From: Streptomyces sp. RPA4-2
GTDB taxonomy: Bacteria > Actinomycetota > Actinomycetes > Streptomycetales > Streptomycetaceae
DNA length: 64,000 nt
Direction: 5' to 3'
Assembly (NCBI RefSeq): GCF_012273515.2
Contig: NZ_CP050975.2
Span: 2,108,001 to 2,172,000 of the forward strand
Shown here in pieces: positions 3,888 through 49,328 of this stretch; positions within the stretch are counted from its first letter, which is position 1; each line of letters starts with the position of its first letter. The notes below the pieces were generated by a model. The model saw only the letters and a list, made by a program, of their open reading frames with translations, was not told where the DNA came from and made no database searches. Position numbers and translations under genes: made by a program.

Positions 3888-4291
3888 CCGGCCGCCGCAC
3901 GGAGGCCGCGGCACGGAGGCCGCCGCCGGACCGGCCGGCGGTGGCGCACCCCTGCCCGTCCTTTCCCGCAGGCCCCGGGCGCCGACTTCCCGCAGGCCCC
4001 CGGGCGCCCCTTTCCCCAGGTCCGGGGCGTTCGCGGCCGGCAGCCGGCGGGCGGCGTCCGGGTGTCGTACCCGCCACTCCCCCGGTCATCGGACGTATCA
4101 CCCGCCCGCGGGGCGACGCCCCAGGTCGCCGGTGAGGTTGACCAAGAACAGCTCGGATGACTGGAGGGTGTTTCAGGGGGAGGAACGGGGCAGTGATCCG
4201 TTCACTCCCCTGTGCAAGGGGGCTGCGGAGGCACCCTCGGCACGCCGTAAGGTTGGGACGTACGCGAGGGCACGTCGGAAGGAGGCGCTGG
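3888..4291. other. Intergenic region upstream of parJ
   Basis: About 400 bp without a gene. It contains a direct repeat of roughly 22 bp (TTCCCGCAGGCCCCGGGCGCC-like, near 3961-4010). A TAAGGT hexamer near 4249, about 40 bp before the parJ start, could be a -10 element. No convincing -35 is visible. Confidence 0.4.
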
Positions 4292-43028: not shown

Positions 43029-43084
43029 CGCTTTCTGGCGCTAGCCTGAGCCGTCGCTTCCCGCCACGCACGAAGGTGAGCACC

Positions 43085-43384
43085 ATGACCACCCTCCATC
43101 CGGAGCACTCGGCCCATCAGCACACCCACGGCCCGGCCTGCGGGCACACCGCGGTACCGCATGGGGACCACGTCGACTACGCGCACGATGGGCACCTGCA
43201 CCGCGAGCACTCCGGGCACTGGGACGAGTGCGAGCCGGGCGGCCACACGGCGCACGGCGACCACGGGGGCCACCGGCACGGCGAGGGCTGCGGTCACCCG
43301 GCGGTCGAGCACGGCGACCATCTCGACTACCTGCACGACGGGCACCGGCACGCCGAGCACGACGGTCACTGGGACGACCACTAG
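43085..43384 (+). CDS. Small His-rich protein with internal duplication
   Basis: 99 residues from ATG 43085 (GAAGGTGAG upstream); a GTG at 43076 is in frame. About a quarter of residues are His. Two ~30-residue units repeat: CGHTAVPHGDHVDYAHDGH then LHREHSGHWDE, and CGHPAVEHGDHLDYLHDGH then RHAEHDGHWDD, each with one Cys and about eight His plus acidic residues. No signal peptide or membrane segment. The composition implies binding of several Zn2+, Ni2+ or Cu2+ ions per chain: metal buffer, storage or metallochaperone (inference). Just after the stop, GHWDDP...DDGHGGHP is still readable in another frame, like the remains of a third unit. Confidence 0.78.
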   Translation: MTTLHPEHSAHQHTHGPACGHTAVPHGDHVDYAHDGHLHREHSGHWDECEPGGHTAHGDHGGHRHGEGCGHPAVEHGDHLDYLHDGHRHAEHDGHWDDH

Positions 43385-43578
43385 GGGCGGCGGACACTGG
43401 GACGACCCTAGGGACGACGGCCACGGCGGACACCCCGGGCCCTCCCGCCGAACACCCCGGAACCCCCTCCGGCGTCTCTTCTCGACGCCCGCCCGACGTC
43501 TCCCCATGACGCCCGTTCGGCGTCTCCCCCACCCCCCGGAGGAGACGCCGATCACGTTTGGCGTACACCCTGGACGAC

Positions 43579-43596
43579 ATACCGACTGGTCGGCAT
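43579..43596. promoter_or_regulatory. TetR-type operator before the kinase-dehydrogenase operon
   Basis: ATACCGACTGGTCGGCAT, CCGAC-TG-GTCGG core. The 14-mer ACATACCGACTGGT (43577-43590) recurs exactly, inverted, at 49315-49328 before the SDR-ligase-TetR operon. It is 39 bp before the kinase start. Confidence 0.7.
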
Positions 43597-43634
43597 CATG
43601 GTCACGTCCCGCTCCCTCGCGTGTAGGAGAAACG

Positions 43635-44657
43635 ATGAGCCCCGACCACCCGCCAGGTCTCGATCTCGACCGGCTGCGCGGCCTGCTCGACGGCGAGCGG
43701 CCCGGCCTGACGCACGGCCCGCTGACCGGCCGGCTGATCGAGGGCGGACGGTCGAACCTCACGTACGCGGTCACGGACGGCACCACGCGATGGGTCGTAC
43801 GGCGGCCTCCGCTCGGCCATGTGCTGGCCACCGCGCACGACATGAAGCGCGAACACCGGGTGATCAGCGCACTGCACCAGACGGCCGTCCCGGTGCCGCG
43901 CCCGGTGCTGCTGTGCGAGGACGTGGAGGTGCTGGGCGCGCCCTTCTACGTCATGGAGTTCGTGGACGGCACGCCGTACCGCACCGCCGATCAGCTCGCC
44001 CCGCTCGGCCCGCGGCGCACGCGGGACGCGGTGCTCGGACTGGTCGACACGCTCGTCGAACTGCACTCCGTGGATCCCGCCGAGGTGGGCCTCGCCGACT
44101 TCGGCCGGCCCGAAGGCTTCCTGGACCGTCAACTGCGGCGCTGGGGCAAGCAGTTGGACGCCTCCAGAAATCGTGAGCTGGTAGGGATCGACGAGCTGCA
44201 GGCGGCCCTGGGGCGCGCGCTGCCGCACTCTCCCGCGCCCACCGTCGTGCACGGCGACTACCGGCTCGACAACGTGCTGATCGGCGAGGACGACCGGATC
44301 AAGGCGATCCTGGACTGGGAGATGTCCACGCTCGGCGATCCGCTGACCGACCTGGGCCTGCTGGTCATGTACAGCGCGCCCCTCGATCTGCCCGACTCCC
44401 CCATCAGTACGACCGCTTCGGCCGCCGGACACCCGGACCCGGACGAGATCGTCGAACGGTACGCCGCGCGCTCGGGGCGCGACGCGTCCGACGTCGCCTG
44501 GTACACGGCGTTCGCCTGGTTCAAGCTCGCCGTGATCCTGGAGGGCATCCACTACCGCTACACGCTCGGCCAGACGGTCGGCGCGGGTTTCGACCGCATC
44601 GGTGACCTGGTGCCGTTCTTCATCGAGCACGGCCTGACCACTCTTCAGGAAGGCTGA
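43635..44657 (+). CDS. APH-fold kinase, ACAD10/11 N-domain and LvaA-like
   Basis: 340 residues, ATG 43635 with AGGAG upstream. Aminoglycoside-phosphotransferase fold: GGRSNLTYAVTD, RWVVRRPPLGHVLATAHDMK, PFYVMEFVDGTPY, catalytic VVHGDYRLDNVLIG with D208, and metal-binding ILDWEMSTLGDPLTDLG. This sequence pattern is that of the kinase domain of ACAD10/ACAD11 and of LvaA, which phosphorylate the 4-hydroxyl of 4-hydroxyacyl-CoA. The acyl-CoA dehydrogenase gene begins 6 bp later, so the two make a split ACAD11. Probably controlled by the TetR regulator of the facing operon. Confidence 0.88.
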   Translation: MSPDHPPGLDLDRLRGLLDGERPGLTHGPLTGRLIEGGRSNLTYAVTDGTTRWVVRRPPLGHVLATAHDMKREHRVISALHQTAVPVPRPVLLCEDVEVLGAPFYVMEFVDGTPYRTADQLAPLGPRRTRDAVLGLVDTLVELHSVDPAEVGLADFGRPEGFLDRQLRRWGKQLDASRNRELVGIDELQAALGRALPHSPAPTVVHGDYRLDNVLIGEDDRIKAILDWEMSTLGDPLTDLGLLVMYSAPLDLPDSPISTTASAAGHPDPDEIVERYAARSGRDASDVAWYTAFAWFKLAVILEGIHYRYTLGQTVGAGFDRIGDLVPFFIEHGLTTLQEG

Positions 44658-44663
44658 TCCGCC

Positions 44664-45878
44664 ATGGACTTCGCATTCGACGCGCGCACCGAGGAACTGC
44701 GGGGCAGGCTGCTCGCCTTCATGGACGAGTACGTGTACCCGGCGGAGGCGGTGGCGGAGGAGCAGCGCGCCCTGCTGGCCTCCCCGTGGGACACGCCCGC
44801 CGTGGTCGGGGAGTTGAAGGCCGAGGCACGCAGGCAGGGGCTGTGGAACCTCTTCCTGCCCGACGCCGAGCACGGTGCCGGGCTCACCAACCTCCAGTAC
44901 GCGCCGCTCGCCGAGATCACCGGCCGCAGCCCGCACCTGGCGCCGACCGCCCTGAACTGCGCGGCGCCGGACACCGGCAACATGGAGGTGCTCGCGCAGT
45001 TCGGCGACGAGCGGCAGAAGAAGCAGTGGCTGGAGCCGCTGCTCGCCGGTGAGATCCGCTCGGCGTTCGCGATGACCGAGCCGGAGGTGGCCTCCTCCGA
45101 CGCGACCAACATCACCACCCACATCGAGCGGGACGGCGACGAGTACGTCGTCACCGGCCGCAAGTGGTACATCTCCGGGGCGATGAACCCGGACTGCCGG
45201 ATCTTCATCGTGATGGGCAAGACGGACCCGGACGGGCCGGACATCCGCCGCCAGCAGTCCATGGTCCTGGTGCCGCGCGACACGCCGGGGGTCGAAGTCC
45301 GGCGCGCCATGCAGGTGTACGGCTACGAGGACCACTCCCACGGCGGCCACGCGGAGGTCGTCTTCCACGGGGCCCGCGTTCCCGTCACCAACCTGGTCGG
45401 CGAGGAGGGCGGCGGCTTCGCCATCGCCCAGGCGCGGCTCGGCCCCGGCCGTATCCACCACTGCATGCGGCTGATCGGCATGGCGGAGCGGGCGATCGAG
45501 CTGATGTGCCGGCGGGCGGTGGCCCGGACGGCGTTCGGCAAGCCGCTGGCACAGCAGGGCGTGGTCCAGAACTGGATCGCCGACGCGCGGGTCGCCGTCG
45601 AGCAGCTGCGGCTGCTGGTGCTGAAGACCGCGTGGATGATGGACACGGTCGGCAACCGGGGCGCCCACACCGAGATCCAGGCCATCAAGATCGCCACCCC
45701 GCGCACGGTCGTCGACATCCTCGACAAGGCGGTGCAGCTGCACGGTGCCGGGGGTGTGAGCCAGGACTTCCCGCTGGCGGAACTCTGGGCCGCCGCGCGC
45801 ACCCTGAAGCTGGCGGACGGGCCGGACGAGGTGCACCAGCGGTCGCTGGCGCGGCGGGAGATCAAGAAGTACGTGTGA
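44664..45878 (+). CDS. Acyl-CoA dehydrogenase, ACAD11/LvaC-like
   Basis: 404 residues, 6 bp after the kinase gene. Flavin acyl-CoA dehydrogenase: AMTEPEVASSDATNITTHIE, KWYISGAMNPDCRIFIVMG, GPGRIHHCMRLIGMAERAIE, FGKPLAQQGVVQNWIADARV, VQLHGAGGVSQDFPLAELWA, ending KLADGPDEVHQRSLARREIK. The ADGPDEVH ending is the ACAD10/11 hallmark, where E is the likely base region in place of YEGT. Expected to convert the 4-phosphoacyl-CoA made by the kinase, by elimination and rehydration, to a 3-hydroxyacyl-CoA for beta-oxidation. Function inferred from family and pairing. Confidence 0.9.
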   Translation: MDFAFDARTEELRGRLLAFMDEYVYPAEAVAEEQRALLASPWDTPAVVGELKAEARRQGLWNLFLPDAEHGAGLTNLQYAPLAEITGRSPHLAPTALNCAAPDTGNMEVLAQFGDERQKKQWLEPLLAGEIRSAFAMTEPEVASSDATNITTHIERDGDEYVVTGRKWYISGAMNPDCRIFIVMGKTDPDGPDIRRQQSMVLVPRDTPGVEVRRAMQVYGYEDHSHGGHAEVVFHGARVPVTNLVGEEGGGFAIAQARLGPGRIHHCMRLIGMAERAIELMCRRAVARTAFGKPLAQQGVVQNWIADARVAVEQLRLLVLKTAWMMDTVGNRGAHTEIQAIKIATPRTVVDILDKAVQLHGAGGVSQDFPLAELWAAARTLKLADGPDEVHQRSLARREIKKYV

Positions 45879-45919
45879 CGCCGGGGGCGGTGGGGGTCTT
45901 CGCCCCCGCCGCCCCGTAC

Positions 45920-45938
45920 CTGGGGGCTCCGCCCCCAG
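45920..45938. terminator. Hairpin after the acyl-CoA dehydrogenase gene
   Basis: CTGGGGGC-TCC-GCCCCCAG; flanked by CCCGTAC and GTACGGG, which extend the stem. First of two hairpins between convergent genes. Confidence 0.65.
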
Positions 45939-45964
45939 ACCCCCGTACGGGCCTCAAGGGCCTT

Positions 45965-46056
45965 GTCCTCGAACGCCGGACGGGCTGGACATGCGGGCCC
46001 GCCCTGAAAGGCTGGCGCCCAGGCCGGGCACTTCAGCCCGTCCGGCGTTCGAGGAC
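45965..46056. repeat. 23-bp perfect inverted repeat around a 46-bp spacer
   Basis: Arms 45965-45987 and 46034-46056 (GTCCTCGAACGCCGGACGGG + CTG) are exact reverse complements, with weaker complementarity beyond them. Sequences like this arm occur widely in streptomycete intergenic regions (remembered), so this is a dispersed palindromic element probably acting as a terminator here. Confidence 0.75.
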
Positions 46057-46107
46057 GAGCCCTTCGGGCGACAAGCGGGTGCCCAGGGCGGGCCCCGGGG
46101 ACGGGGA

Positions 46108-46701
46108 CTACGGTCGCAGCGCGCGCAGCAGCAGGTCGGCCAGATGGTCGGCGACCTCCTGGGGGTTGAGCGGGCCGTCCGGGCGGTACCACGTCGACAG
46201 GTGGTGGACCGAGCCGAAGTGGTAGTCGACGACCAGGTCCGCCGGGGTGGCCGTGGAGAAGACGCCCTTCTTCTGGCCCTCCTCGATCAGCGCGCGGAAG
46301 CGCTCGTGGTAGCGGCGCCGCTCGGACCGCACCTGCTTGAGCTTCTCCGGGCTGAGGTGGTGCATCGACCGGAAGAAGATCGAGGCGTCGTCGAGGTTGT
46401 CGATGGTCGTGACGACCACGTCGGCCGCCGCGCCCCGGACCCGCTCCTCCACCGGCGCGCCGGAGTCCGCGAACGCGTCCAGCCGCTCCTGCTGGATGCG
46501 CAGCACGCGTGCGTACACCTCGTGCAGGAGGTCGTCCTTCGAGCCGAAGTAGTGGTAGAGCGCGCCCTTGGTGACGCCCGCCGCCTCCACGATCTCCTGC
46601 ACGGAGGTCCGGTCGTAGCCCTGCTCGGCGAAGAGCCGGGTGGCGGCGGCCAGGAGCCGCTGCGGGACGGGCGTACCGTCGCCGTCCGTCGTTCTGGGCA
46701 C
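46108..46701 (-). CDS. TetR-family regulator of the 4-hydroxy acid cluster
   Basis: 197 residues from GTG 46701 (AGGTGG 5 bp before it); the frame continues upstream without a better start. N-terminal HTH: RLLAAATRLFAEQGYDRTSV, QEIVEAAGVTKGALYHYFGS, KDDLLHEVYARVLRIQQERL. C-terminal ligand domain helical, with VDYHFGSVHHLSTWYRPDG. It is last in the SDR-ligase-TetR operon. Because the same 14-bp palindromic sequence precedes both this operon and the facing kinase-dehydrogenase operon, it most likely represses both, with an acyl-CoA as inducer (inference). Confidence 0.88.
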   Translation of the reverse strand: MPRTTDGDGTPVPQRLLAAATRLFAEQGYDRTSVQEIVEAAGVTKGALYHYFGSKDDLLHEVYARVLRIQQERLDAFADSGAPVEERVRGAAADVVVTTIDNLDDASIFFRSMHHLSPEKLKQVRSERRRYHERFRALIEEGQKKGVFSTATPADLVVDYHFGSVHHLSTWYRPDGPLNPQEVADHLADLLLRALRP

Positions 46702-46794
46702 TGCCGCCACCTGCCTTCCGTGCGTGGTTCGATGAAAGCGCCGTCCGGTGGCGGACGCCGCTCGGCGAGGAGCGTCCACCACGGAGATTGTTGT

Positions 46795-48456
46795 CTACTC
46801 CGGGCCCTGCGAGCGCGTACGCAGTTCCCGACGGAGGATCTTCCCACTCGCCGTCTTCGGCAGGTCGGGCAGGATCTCCACGTACCGCGGATACTTGTAG
46901 GCGGCCAGTCTCTCCTTGCAGTACGCGGCGAGCGCGTCGGGGTCCTCCTCGGCGCCCGGTCGCAGGCTGATGTAGGCCTTGACGGTCTCGCCGCGGTAGC
47001 CGTCGGGGATGCCCACGACGGCGGCCTCGCGGACCGCCGGATGGGTGTAGAGCACGTCCTCGACCTCGCGGGGCCACACCTTGAAGCCGGACGCGTTGAT
47101 CATGTCTTTCTTGCGGTCGACGACGTAGAGCCAGCCCTCCGGGTCCATGAATCCGATGTCGCCGGTGCGCAGCTCACCGTCCGGGAAGGTCTCTGCGGTG
47201 GCCTCGGGGCGCTGCCAGTAGCCCGGCACCACCTGCGGTCCCCTCACGAGGATCTCGCCCTGTTCCCCGAACGGGACCTCCAGGCCCTGCTCGTCGACGA
47301 TCCGTACGACGCTGTCGGGTCCCGGCAGGCCGACGGCCAGCGTGCCCGAGACCGGGTCGACGGGGGCCTCCCGGCCCGGCGGCACGGAGGCGCAGGGCGC
47401 GGTGCACTCGGTGAGCCCGTAGCCGTTGCGGATGTAGGGCCCGAATCCGGCGCGGAACTTCTCCACCAGGGCGGGCGGCAGCGGCGCTCCGCCGGAGGAG
47501 ATGTTCACGAAGGACGAGAAGTGGTCCGGAGTGACGGACGGATGGGCGGCCAGGGCCATGAAGGCGGTCGAGGGGCCGACGGTGTAGAGCGGCCGGTGCT
47601 CGGCGAACGCGTCGAGCACGACCCCCGCCTCGAAGCGGTAGGCGAGGACCAGCGTGCCCCCGCTGTTGAGGCAGGCGGCGAGCTGGCAGACCATGCCGGT
47701 GATGTGGAACAGGGGCGCCATCGCGAAGTACACCGGCGCCTCGGGCAGCGCGAGACCGGTCCGCTGCCGCTCGGCGTTGTACATGATGTTGCCGTGCGTG
47801 TTGGTGGCGCCCTTGGGGGTGCCGCTGGTGCCGGAGGTGTAGCTGATCAGCGCGATGTCGGAGGGGTCGGCGTCGCGGCCTTCGGGGGCCTTGTTCCGCT
47901 GAGCGGCGACCGTCCCGAGGTCGTCGGCGTCCGCGGCCGACGAAAGGCGCTCGAAGGTCAGGACGCGCGCGTCGTCGCGGGTCTGGAAGTCCAGTTCGCA
48001 GGCGGTGAGGACGATGCGCACGGCCGAGTCGGCCGCCGTCTCGCGCAGATACGACTCCCACGCGCGGTCGGAGCAGACCAGGGCGCGCACGTCCGCGTCG
48101 TGCAGGACGTGGCGGACCTCGCCCGACTTGTACATGGGGTTGACCGGCACGACTGTCGCGCCGGCCTTCCAGGCGCCGAGCAGCGCGAGCACGAAGTGCG
48201 GGGAGTTCTGCAGCAGGATCGCGACCCGGTCGCCGCGCTCCAGGCCGCGGGCGGCGAGATGCCCGGCGACCGAGTCGCTCAGCTCGTCCACCTCGCGGTA
48301 GCTCAGGCGGCCGTCGAAGTAGGTGAGCGCGGTGCGGTCCGGAACGTCCTCCACGGCCACGCGCAGGGCGTGCACCAGGGAGTCGGCGGGGCTCACCGGG
48401 GCGCTCTGCGCGTCGCTGAGGAGGGCCACCCAGGGGCGGTCCGCGTAGGTGGTCAC
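46795..48456 (-). CDS. Acyl-CoA synthetase (AMP-forming)
   Basis: 553 residues from GTG 48456, which overlaps the SDR stop by 4 bp. ANL-superfamily motifs: ISYTSGTSGTPKGATNTHGN (P-loop), NGYGLTECTAPC, TGDIGFMDPEGWLYVVDRKK, and the C-terminal acylation lysine in LPKTASGKILRREL. Activates a carboxylic acid as its CoA thioester. In this cluster it would prime a 4-oxo or 4-hydroxy acid (LvaE-like role). The same frame stays open far upstream across the SDR gene, but that part is a shadow of the SDR and not coding. Confidence 0.92.
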   Translation of the reverse strand: MTTYADRPWVALLSDAQSAPVSPADSLVHALRVAVEDVPDRTALTYFDGRLSYREVDELSDSVAGHLAARGLERGDRVAILLQNSPHFVLALLGAWKAGATVVPVNPMYKSGEVRHVLHDADVRALVCSDRAWESYLRETAADSAVRIVLTACELDFQTRDDARVLTFERLSSAADADDLGTVAAQRNKAPEGRDADPSDIALISYTSGTSGTPKGATNTHGNIMYNAERQRTGLALPEAPVYFAMAPLFHITGMVCQLAACLNSGGTLVLAYRFEAGVVLDAFAEHRPLYTVGPSTAFMALAAHPSVTPDHFSSFVNISSGGAPLPPALVEKFRAGFGPYIRNGYGLTECTAPCASVPPGREAPVDPVSGTLAVGLPGPDSVVRIVDEQGLEVPFGEQGEILVRGPQVVPGYWQRPEATAETFPDGELRTGDIGFMDPEGWLYVVDRKKDMINASGFKVWPREVEDVLYTHPAVREAAVVGIPDGYRGETVKAYISLRPGAEEDPDALAAYCKERLAAYKYPRYVEILPDLPKTASGKILRRELRTRSQGPE

Positions 48457-49217
48457 CGGCCCGCCTCCCACTTCTGCTGGATGTGGTTCATGTTCGTCAG
48501 CCAGCGGTCCGGCTCGGTGGCCCGCACCTGGTAGTAACCGGCCACCTCGGGGTGCGGCAGGATCAGGAAGCGGTCCTCCTCGATCCCCGTGAAGAGGGCG
48601 TTCGCGACGTCCTCCGGCTCGATGGCGGTCGGCTGGAGCACCAGGTCGCCCGCGCTGCCGGTGGCGTCGAGCATGTCGGTGCGCACTCCCTGCGGACAGA
48701 TCGCGTGCACCTTCAGGCCCCGGTGGCGGTAGGTCAGCGACAGCCACTCGGCGAAGGCGTACGCGCCGTGCTTGGTCACGCTGTAGGGCGCGGCGCCGAT
48801 CATGGTGAGCAGTCCGGCGGCGGAGACGGTGGAGACGAAACGGCCGCTGCCACGCTCCAGCCAGGCCGGGAGCAGCTCGTGGGCGGCGCGGACGTGGGCC
48901 ATCACGTTGACGTCCCAGGCCAGCTCCCAGACCTGCTCGCCGGCCGCCTCGGTGCCGCCCGAGGCGACGCCCGCGTTGGCGCAGTAGACGTCGATCGTGC
49001 CGCCGAGGGCGTCCCGGGCCTCGGTCACGATCGTGGACGCGTCGCCGGGGACCGCGATGCCGCCGATCTCCTCGGCCACGGCCCGAGCCTTGGCGGCGTC
49101 GAGGTCGTTGACGACGACTCTGGCTCCCTCGGCGGCGAAGCGGCGGGCCAGCGCGGCCCCGATGCCGCCTCCCGCACCGGTGACGACCACTCCCGCATCC
49201 TGCACGGCTTCCACCAT
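48453..49217 (-). CDS. SDR oxidoreductase, first gene of the CoA-ligase operon
   Basis: 254 residues, ATG 49217 with AAGGAG upstream. Classical SDR: VVVTGAGGGIGAALARRFAA, NDLD after beta-2 (NAD-preferring), YCANAGVAS, catalytic Ser in VSTVSAAG, YSVTKHGAYAFAEWL with Tyr-x3-Lys, ICPQGVRTDML. Within the cluster it could reduce a 4-oxoacyl-CoA to the 4-hydroxy form, the LvaD step. The C-terminus ends YYQVRATEPDRWLTNMNHIQ. Translationally coupled to the ligase. A TetR-type operator and four 16-bp direct repeats lie immediately upstream. Confidence 0.9.
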   Translation of the reverse strand: MVEAVQDAGVVVTGAGGGIGAALARRFAAEGARVVVNDLDAAKARAVAEEIGGIAVPGDASTIVTEARDALGGTIDVYCANAGVASGGTEAAGEQVWELAWDVNVMAHVRAAHELLPAWLERGSGRFVSTVSAAGLLTMIGAAPYSVTKHGAYAFAEWLSLTYRHRGLKVHAICPQGVRTDMLDATGSAGDLVLQPTAIEPEDVANALFTGIEEDRFLILPHPEVAGYYQVRATEPDRWLTNMNHIQQKWEAGR

Positions 49218-49241
49218 CGGTCTCCTTCGACGCGACGCCAA

Positions 49242-49305
49242 TCGGCTCTGCAAGCAGTCGGCTCTGCAAGCAGTCGGCTCTGCACGCAGCCGGCTCTGCT
49301 GCGAC
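49242..49305. repeat. Four tandem 16-bp repeats upstream of the SDR gene
   Basis: TCGGCTCTGCAAGCAG at 49242-49257 and 49258-49273, TCGGCTCTGCACGCAG at 49274-49289, and a decayed fourth at 49290-49305. They fill the space between the operator at 49315-49328 and the SDR start, so they lie in the probable 5' leader. Confidence 0.85.
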
Positions 49306-49314
49306 GCCAGACTA

Positions 49315-49328
49315 ACCAGTCGGTATGT
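49315..49328. promoter_or_regulatory. TetR-type operator before the SDR-ligase-TetR operon
   Basis: On the minus strand ACATACCGACTGGT, identical to 43577-43590. This copy lacks the full right half-site (TTAG instead of CGGC). About 100 bp before the SDR start. Confidence 0.68.

Follow-up and report, generated by a model that had tools for sequence, protein, structure and literature searches.

The stretch of DNA analysed here (the window, 64,000 nt, equal to G000:C1:2108001-2172000 of the 9.86-Mb single-contig genome of Streptomyces sp. RPA4-2; coordinates are those of the window unless stated otherwise) carries two convergent gene units at 43577-49328. A kinase and an acyl-CoA dehydrogenase (ACAD) on the plus strand (43635-45878) face a short-chain dehydrogenase/reductase (SDR), an acyl-CoA ligase and a TetR-family regulator on the minus strand (49217-46108), as listed in Table 1. 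Our analysis suggests that these genes quite probably constitute a TetR-controlled catabolic regulon for C4-hydroxy acids, in which the kinase and the ACAD would remove the oxygen, and which is found in nearly all Streptomyces examined.

Table 1. Genes, operators and repeats of the two convergent units, in window coordinates
Feature	Position	Strand	Remarks
Operator 1 before the kinase, ACATACCGACTGGTCGGCATCA	43577-43598	+	36 nt upstream of the ATG
APH-fold kinase	43635-44657	+	Pfam APH; putative 4-hydroxyacyl-CoA kinase
Acyl-CoA dehydrogenase of the ACAD10/11-LvaC type	44664-45878	+	Pfam Acyl-CoA_dh N/M/C; putative 4-phosphoacyl-CoA eliminase
Long inverted repeat between the convergent units	45942-46079	none	folding -103.5 kcal/mol, z -7.59
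TetR-family regulator	46108-46701	-	Pfam TetR_N and TetR_C_24; GTG start inferred
AMP-forming acyl-CoA ligase, accessory	46795-48456	-	Pfam AMP-binding
SDR with YxxxK motif and acidic beta-2 end	48453-49217	-	Pfam adh_short
16-bp direct repeat, 3.6 copies, in the SDR leader	49242-49299	none	between operator 2 and the start codon
Operator 2 before the SDR, ACATACCGACTGGTTAGTCTGG	49307-49328	-	exact 14-mer match

A sequence-only reading of this DNA had described both units as coupled. This agrees with our data for the kinase and ACAD genes, which lie on the plus strand as described with a gap of 6 nt and agree with their Pfam assignments, and for the SDR and ligase genes, which overlap by 4 nt. 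It holds less well for the TetR gene, which is co-directional with them but not tightly coupled, its putative GTG start lying 93 nt past the ligase stop. No NCBIfam model reached its cut-off for any of the five proteins among the matches listed.

The gene set is well conserved across the genus. The kinase is matched at an E-value of 1e-50 in 115 of the 121 Streptomyces genomes, a few of the matches being fragments and one (G079) having only 50% identity, and all of the best 120 kinase relatives that bear an organism name are from Streptomyces. We chose 40 loci from the kinase-bearing genomes for the neighbourhood and operator counts. Kinase and ACAD are present in all 40, TetR in 39 and the SDR in 38; one of the two SDR exceptions (L046) ends at a contig edge and the other (L076) has only part of a ligase, without a match to the SDR. 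A copy of the kinase, ACAD and SDR genes was also observed between IS3-type genes on a linear plasmid of Streptomyces cathayae (L119), where the TetR stretch consists of two separate matches and no TetR gene is listed.

The two units share an upstream sequence. The 14-mer ACATACCGACTGGT stands exactly and in the correct orientation before both, at 43577 (+) and 49315 (-), as had been pointed out from the sequence. It has no further match in the window with up to 3 mismatches, and since 2.42 matches are expected by chance at that tolerance, the window search alone is no evidence; the exactness and the placement are what count. The whole genome has 3 exact copies, compared with ~0.07 expected for 14 random uniform bases in 9.86 Mb on both strands. 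Inexact matches in this genome are weakly enriched, with 25 matches to the 14-mer at up to 2 mismatches versus 17 for the reversed control, and 117 matches per strand to the 16-nt palindrome at up to 3 mismatches versus 74 for the control. The inexact 14-mer matches (22 of the 25) were mostly dropped as regulon sites: 12 were fetched (three with one mismatch, nine with two), six of these lie inside an open reading frame (ORF), and only two (L002 and L003) were kept.

The 14-mer is part of a larger 22-nt pseudopalindrome, ACATACCGAC(YR)GTCGGTATGT. Across the kinase leaders of the window and the 40 loci, columns 43576-43597 (the motif shifted by one base) have a mean identity of 94%, and the rest of the 160 nt has 41%. 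Each locus was scored by how well it matches ACATACCGACYRGTCGGTATGT at the best position in the 250 nt upstream of the kinase and, for the SDR, in the 300 nt upstream. The operator was found before the kinase in 40/40 loci with scores of 18-20 of 22, and before the SDR in 38/38 loci that have one with scores of 17-19, compared with a mean of ~11.7 and a maximum of 16 in 250-nt windows taken at random from these loci. No operator was found before TetR in these 40 loci (best scores 11-14). The letters CATACCGAC are invariant in 78 of the 78 sites and the column counts show that the centre letters vary; the SDR-side site has one degraded arm (GTTAGTCTG), with GTTAGT in place of that arm. The strict core pattern CATACCGACYRGTYRG has 285 matches in the 121 genomes compared with 11 for the reversed control, with exactly two matches in 66 of the genomes. 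Five of the six genomes without the kinase (E 1e-50) also lack the strict motif, whereas 114 of the 115 with the kinase have at least one, the only one without it being G050, whose kinase lies at the edge of a contig. The Fisher p-value of this co-occurrence is 1.8e-7, not corrected for shared ancestry.

We found homologues of the regulator (E 1e-60) in 103 of 150 genomes of the family, Streptomycetaceae, and chose 20 TetR loci within the family but outside Streptomyces. TetR, kinase and ACAD occur together in 17 of them; one more (L237) has TetR, ACAD and SDR, and two (L228 and L233) are stand-alone TetR paralogues with operator-like sites nearby. A site scoring at least 17 of 22 precedes the kinase in 16 of the 17 loci, the remaining one (L243) having none of 16 or more. 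TetR is divergent to the kinase-ACAD pair in seven of the family loci and the operator lies between them in six, the gap in the seventh (L241) being 1.2 kb. The regulator is about as conserved as the ACAD, with 84-96% across the Streptomyces loci. That the genes stay linked through rearrangements is the strongest argument for assigning the operator to this TetR. The control of both units by TetR, as first proposed from the window, is thus strongly supported by comparison, through the operator counts (40/40 and 38/38), the strict pattern (285 versus 11) and the linkage in 17/20 loci. Outside the family, the operator could not be traced: no site of 16 or more was found in 22 kinase loci of the phylum, each ~4 kb or less in length.

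The type of operator gives a hint of the inducer. The TetR protein matches the ScbR model below its cut-off (71 versus 150 bits), and its closest solved relative, only a distant one, is 3vpr (91 bits), which we take to be PfmR. Two TetR repressors of phenylacetate and fatty-acid genes have operators of this type, PfmR of Thermus thermophilus with TACCGACCGNTNGGTN (PMC7022988) and PaaR of Burkholderia cenocepacia with ACCGACCGGTCGGT (PMC2770484). The palindrome of this class, ACCGAC-N2-GTCGGT, is present in the target promoters here, the SDR site having one arm only. PfmR and PaaR differ from our system in serving another pathway and in having a TetR sequence that is only distantly related. Because of this likeness of the operators and the resemblance of the TetR to KstR2, we consider an acyl-CoA a plausible inducer. 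TetR would bind ATACCGAC-N2-GTCGGTAT before both units, before an EstB-type esterase gene and, in some genomes, before an F420 oxidoreductase gene (see below), repress all of them and probably release the operator on binding a pathway acyl-CoA.

The ACAD gives an indication of the chemistry. Its best relatives in the PDB are mouse and human ACAD11 and 4hr3 at 443-457 bits, followed by a drop to 141 bits for the best ordinary ACAD, and it has 216/395 identities with mouse ACAD11. The ACAD11 residues R626, R631, H634, R637 and D753 correspond to R258, R263, H266, R269 and D385 of the window protein, and H597 and the special proline are kept as well. These mouse residues are tied to 4-phosphoacyl-CoA in PMC12440821, and the proline is described in PMC11342911. 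The phosphate-binding HCMR motif (R258, H266, R269) and the catalytic Asp that replaces Glu (D385, within KLADGPDEVH) are both kept in 40/40 Streptomyces loci. The window's own genome encodes 21 ACADs that match at 1e-10; HCMR occurs in one of the 20 for which a locus was obtained, that of the window. In a tree of 28 rows, the window ACAD, mouse ACAD11 and 20 bacterial ACADs form one clade (support 97/94) apart from six ordinary ACADs, which sit on long branches with one join flagged as unsafe by the program; HHAMR replaces HCMR in one member of the clade, encoded on a Rhodococcus plasmid. The clade and the full set of active-site residues bear out the assignment of this enzyme to the ACAD10/11-LvaC type that had been suggested from the sequence. 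Since it keeps the ACAD11 residues for 4-phosphoacyl-CoA, phosphorylation of a 4-hydroxyacyl-CoA followed by elimination is the likely reaction sequence.

Three observations on related ACADs stand apart from this. Ten Pseudomonas loci among the 80 genome-contig loci that we collected have the ACAD but no kinase match, and no lva operon was seen in the four inspected gene by gene. In L181, L182, L190 and L198 a solitary ACAD10/11-type ACAD lies beside a divergent LysR-like gene, with no kinase match nearby. An ACAD stretch on the Sulfitobacter pontiacus plasmid NZ_CP081118.1 (H42) is labelled as vanG glycopeptide resistance in the PLSDB table, which looks like a false resistance prediction.

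The kinase belongs to the same broad family as the kinase domain of mouse ACAD11, with 111/304 identities, and its D208, N213 and R165 correspond to D220, N225 and R176 of that protein. The APH loop HGD(Y/F)R.(D/N)N is found in 40/40 Streptomyces loci, 35 with Y and 5 with F. Its solved relatives are 9o56 (228 bits; named as an aminoglycoside phosphotransferase, and grouping with Bacillaceae kinases in our tree), 3dxp (172 bits) and ACAD11 (167 and 163 bits), and every other APH structure has 39 bits or less. It is therefore most probably not one of the unrelated APH proteins, a grouping that would have spoken against the sequence-only reading. The likeness to ACAD10/11 proposed there stands as far as the broad family goes, whose members are found beside such ACADs and whose catalytic residues are kept, but not for the branch of ACAD11 itself, which groups with proteobacterial kinases (99/99) and does not include the window kinase. 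We consider the family membership good, but are less confident in transferring the substrate of ACAD11 to the kinase than to the ACAD.

Several observations weigh against the regulon as we read it. The first concern the regulator. The window's genome has 147 first-look TetR candidates, and some of the distant sites may belong to others among them; a palindrome with one mismatch, TACCGACTGGTCTGTA, is located 93 nt upstream of a further TetR-like gene in L111 (G000:C1:4781500-4790000, near 4229). These data would suit a situation in which a different TetR with this class of operator recognizes the sites of the two units and the TetR encoded next to them has another role, as would the stand-alone paralogues with similar sites nearby and the ACCGACCGGTCGGT type of operator being common to several TetR repressors such as PaaR and PfmR. 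We regard this as very unlikely, however, as the TetR stays with kinase and ACAD through rearrangements, with the site between the divergent genes in six of seven cases, and is conserved to about the same degree as the ACAD. The second concern the kinase. Of the CoA-contact arginines R86 and R176 of ACAD11, as numbered in PMC12440821, R176 has its counterpart in R165, and R86 aligns by number with H74, an arginine (R72) sitting beside the alpha-C Glu. In the kinase tree, ACAD11 joins the proteobacterial kinases and 3dxp, whereas the window protein goes with the actinobacterial kinases, and because its branch is separate the acceptor could differ. Such a kinase (E 1e-70) was found in 46 of 198 genomes of the phylum, with 41-54% identity outside Streptomyces in the genomes sampled. 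In the 22 phylum kinase loci mentioned above (~44-54% identity, short stretches), an ACAD match beside the kinase is absent in 19, and the others have one ACAD10/11-like match (59%) and two ACAD matches of 35-36%; similar actinobacterial kinases may thus do other work. The third is that the five-gene core lacks a hydratase, a 3-hydroxyacyl-CoA dehydrogenase and a thiolase.

The kinase data bring up the question of whether the protein could be an ordinary APH directed at antibiotics or sugars, or a kinase with some other acceptor, that stands beside the ACAD by chance. Pfam gives only APH, no NCBIfam family was reached, and the 19 loci without ACAD match would be in line with it. We consider it most improbable, since the relatives of known structure, ACAD11 and two bacterial kinases, are members of one family from which other APH proteins are far away, and the adjacency of kinase and ACAD is found in all 40 Streptomyces loci and recurs across several phyla. 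The tree points in the same direction. Five of the 13 APH loci of the window's genome entered it by our motif filter; all five lack the DWE motif, three of them branch off separately, and the other two, which are identical, fall inside on a long branch.

The sequence-only reading equated the SDR with the LvaD-like 4-oxo reductase, which our comparison does not uphold. By BLASTP, the window SDR is 40-62% identical to SDRs of Tsukamurella (SDR2), Deinococcus (two), Sulfitobacter (SDR2), Pirellulales, Blastocatellia, a betaproteobacterium and two loci of the family, but only 25-31% to the FabG-like SDRs of Caballeronia, Bosea (SDR1), Sulfitobacter (SDR1), Rhodococcus BH4 (SDR1) and Tsukamurella (SDR1). 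The FabG-like SDR that occupies the LvaD-like place in Caballeronia has no match to the window SDR at E 1e-3, and the reverse query gives 25.5% over 68%. The two proteins therefore belong to different subfamilies, the comparison being with related clusters and not with LvaD itself. In Sulfitobacter and Tsukamurella both types occur within one cluster. The subfamily of the window SDR shares a D(R/K/G)W(L/I) tail where the tail is printed, and an Asp at the end of beta-2 where this is legible. An Asp in this position indicates a preference for NAD in SDRs, so the enzyme appears to be of the NAD type, and its direction is read from the same residue: it would carry out an oxidation or an interconversion at the carbinol. 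Solved structures gave no informative relative. The AMP-forming ligase, which had been taken as a part of the pathway, is present as a gene but dispensable to the cluster, since six of the 39 untruncated loci (L054, L057, L071, L072, L073 and L080) lack it in an otherwise intact cluster.

These results bear on whether the cluster is the levulinate (Lva) pathway proper, in which the ligase would form levulinyl-CoA, the SDR would reduce it to 4-hydroxyvaleryl-CoA, and kinase and ACAD would follow. The parts are close to lvaABCDE as given in PMC6692424, and ligase, SDR, kinase and ACAD stand under one operator. Yet the SDR is not of the FabG-like type found in the LvaD-like place of Caballeronia and its beta-2 end looks NAD-type, the ligase is missing from the six loci above, and four family loci (L238, L240, L241 and L242) have TetR, kinase and ACAD with no SDR or ligase match in the stretch, a fifth (L239) having only a 38% ligase. 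We consider this pathway unlikely here, and levulinate, for which there is no specific evidence, was dropped as the leading reading of the substrate. The most likely substrates in our view are 4-hydroxy acids other than 4-hydroxyvalerate alone, perhaps derived from gamma-lactones or esters. Of the split, TetR-controlled 4-hydroxy-acid system proposed from the sequence, then, the biochemistry is likely in outline and the regulation is retained, and the levulinate, the equation with LvaD and an argument from a missing LvaB are not.

That last argument took the lack of a small LvaB-like partner as a real difference from Pseudomonas. There is no LvaB in the 6 nt between the window kinase and ACAD, the rest of the genome not having been searched for it. 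The levulinate cluster of P. citronellolis, though, is also without lvaB (PMC6692424), and the word LvaB is absent from the main text of PMC11342911, in which kinase and ACAD orthologues of B. pseudomallei replaced the ACAD10 domains. The lva pathway (LvaABCDE) and the Streptomyces cluster have kinase, ACAD, SDR and ligase in common and the same proposed chemistry (PMC6692424, PMC11342911, PMC12440821). They differ in the regulator, which is a sigma54-type LvaR in Pseudomonas and a TetR here, and in the subfamily of the SDR.

Compared with animal ACAD10 and ACAD11, the Streptomyces proteins have the full ACAD active site and the kinase fold with its catalytic Asp. The two activities are fused in animals and encoded by two separate genes in Streptomyces, where the kinase is of another branch and the cluster adds TetR, SDR, ligase and esterase. 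ACAD, one or more SDRs and an APH kinase also occur together on plasmids of Caballeronia, Bosea, Deinococcus and Streptomyces sp. WAC00288; their kinases are 37-41% identical to that of the window, and a histidine phosphatase is present in 3 of the 4. Plasmid p2 of WAC00288 (L343, 6001-10522) encodes an ACAD, two SDRs, an APH kinase and a histidine phosphatase with a TetR nearby; by its gene content it is a second module type in Streptomyces, like that on the Deinococcus plasmid. A Tsukamurella plasmid has a 'phosphotriesterase' and a ligase after kinase and ACADs, a parallel by annotation only. The qsd operon of Rhodococcus erythropolis (QsdA lactonase, QsdC ligase, QsdR TetR) is similar in being a TetR-controlled combination of a lactone hydrolase and an acyl-CoA ligase in an actinobacterium (PMC6262395); its TetR is another one, and a kinase and an acyl-CoA dehydrogenase are not mentioned in the main text of that paper.

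The regulon seems to extend beyond the two units. Among the matches listed, there are at least 29 further operator places, and the 28 that were fetched (26 in other genomes and two in the window's own, by the strict pattern) are a sample only. Within 450 nt downstream of these sites we found an EstB-type serine hydrolase gene in 10 loci, including one in the window's genome, and a TIGR03619-type F420-dependent luciferase-like monooxygenase (LLM) oxidoreductase gene in 8. Two other groups have 4 loci each, one divergent to the LLM gene and one at GGTTGG-type sites; the remaining genes are an alpha/beta hydrolase (3 loci), a group of 2 and singletons, and no gene is called in L101. We made the reverse test in 46 genomes. 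Serine-hydrolase orthologues with at least ~73% identity occur in 18 of them, that of the window included, and all 18 have the operator (scores 17-19), while distant homologues of 52% identity or less have it in 0/5 (scores 11-12). The LLM gene has the operator in 10 of 30 loci (16-18, two reaching only 16), all among the eleven most similar, and in none of the other 20; no LLM gene of this kind was found in the window's genome at E 1e-90. The best solved relatives of the hydrolase are the carboxylesterases 7y3z and 5gmx, and no solved relative of the F420 oxidoreductase was found at 1e-15. As the hydrolase sits in the regulon, the substrate acid may arrive as an ester or lactone. The GGTTGG-type sites (CACCATACCGACYGGTTGG-type; L084, L087, L105 and L106) recur beside a gene group of unknown family and are perhaps the operator of another TetR.

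The presence of the esterase and the F420 oxidoreductase in the regulon of part of Streptomyces raises the possibility that the module serves particular natural compounds, such as terpenoid, steroid or polyketide fragments with a gamma-hydroxyl group or lactones, and not general 4-hydroxy fatty acids. In the annotations, an epoxide hydrolase stands close to kinase and ACAD in both Sphingobium and Rhodococcus, in Sphingobium together with steroid-type dehydrogenases, and in Tsukamurella the 'phosphotriesterase' and ligase are close to them. We regard such a specialization as possible but rather unlikely, as the wide occurrence in 115 of 121 genomes favours a common substrate and the five-gene core has no compound-specific enzyme.

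For the regulon for C4-hydroxy acids, which we prefer, we propose the following steps. The ligase, or another one where it is absent, would make the acyl-CoA; the APH kinase would phosphorylate the 4-hydroxyl group of the 4-hydroxyacyl-CoA; and the ACAD10/11-type enzyme would remove the phosphate with its redox-active FAD to give a 2-enoyl-CoA for ordinary beta-oxidation. We speculate, as a tentative and rather doubtful extension, that a single TetR controls a whole route from lactones to beta-oxidation: the EstB-type enzyme, in genomes that have it, would open the gamma-lactone or ester, the ligase would activate the acid, the NAD-type SDR would interconvert the C4 carbinol by way of a 4-oxo intermediate, which would give a stereospecific kinase access to both isomers, and kinase and ACAD would complete the route. 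If this is true, the SDR subfamily with the D(R/K/G)W(L/I) tail, which has had no assigned role so far, would generally accompany this chemistry in different phyla.

Both intergenic regions have repeats. The hairpin arms of the inverted repeat between the units, CCGTCCGGCGTTCGAGGAC (45965-46056), are a dispersed repeat with 92 matches of up to 1 mismatch in the window's genome, often as inverted pairs, and 0 for the reversed control; the whole structure is a possible two-way terminator. The direct repeat in the SDR leader has the unit TCGGCTCTGCAAGCAG, with 95% matches among its copies. Just 5' of the kinase leader, at 43076-43384, lies an ORF whose small product is very rich in histidine, has repeated GH/HGDH motifs and looks metal-binding.

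The chemistry is known, while the switch and the extra parts of the Streptomyces version are not described in the literature searched: neither the operator nor the regulon was found to be described for Streptomyces, judging mostly from titles and the beginnings of abstracts, and a search by the operator string gave no paper with Streptomyces in its title. The route through 4-phosphoacyl-CoA was tied to genes in animals only recently (2024-2025), and its bacterial form has been worked out, in the literature covered, for levulinate in Pseudomonas. The TetR-linked version, which nearly all of the examined Streptomyces carry, offers a tractable genetic system with a defined operator, and its candidate parts, i.e. 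the esterase, the SDR subfamily and the F420 enzyme, could reveal natural substrates of this chemistry. It would also shift many annotations such as 'phosphotransferase family protein' and 'aminoglycoside phosphotransferase' towards a function in lipid metabolism.

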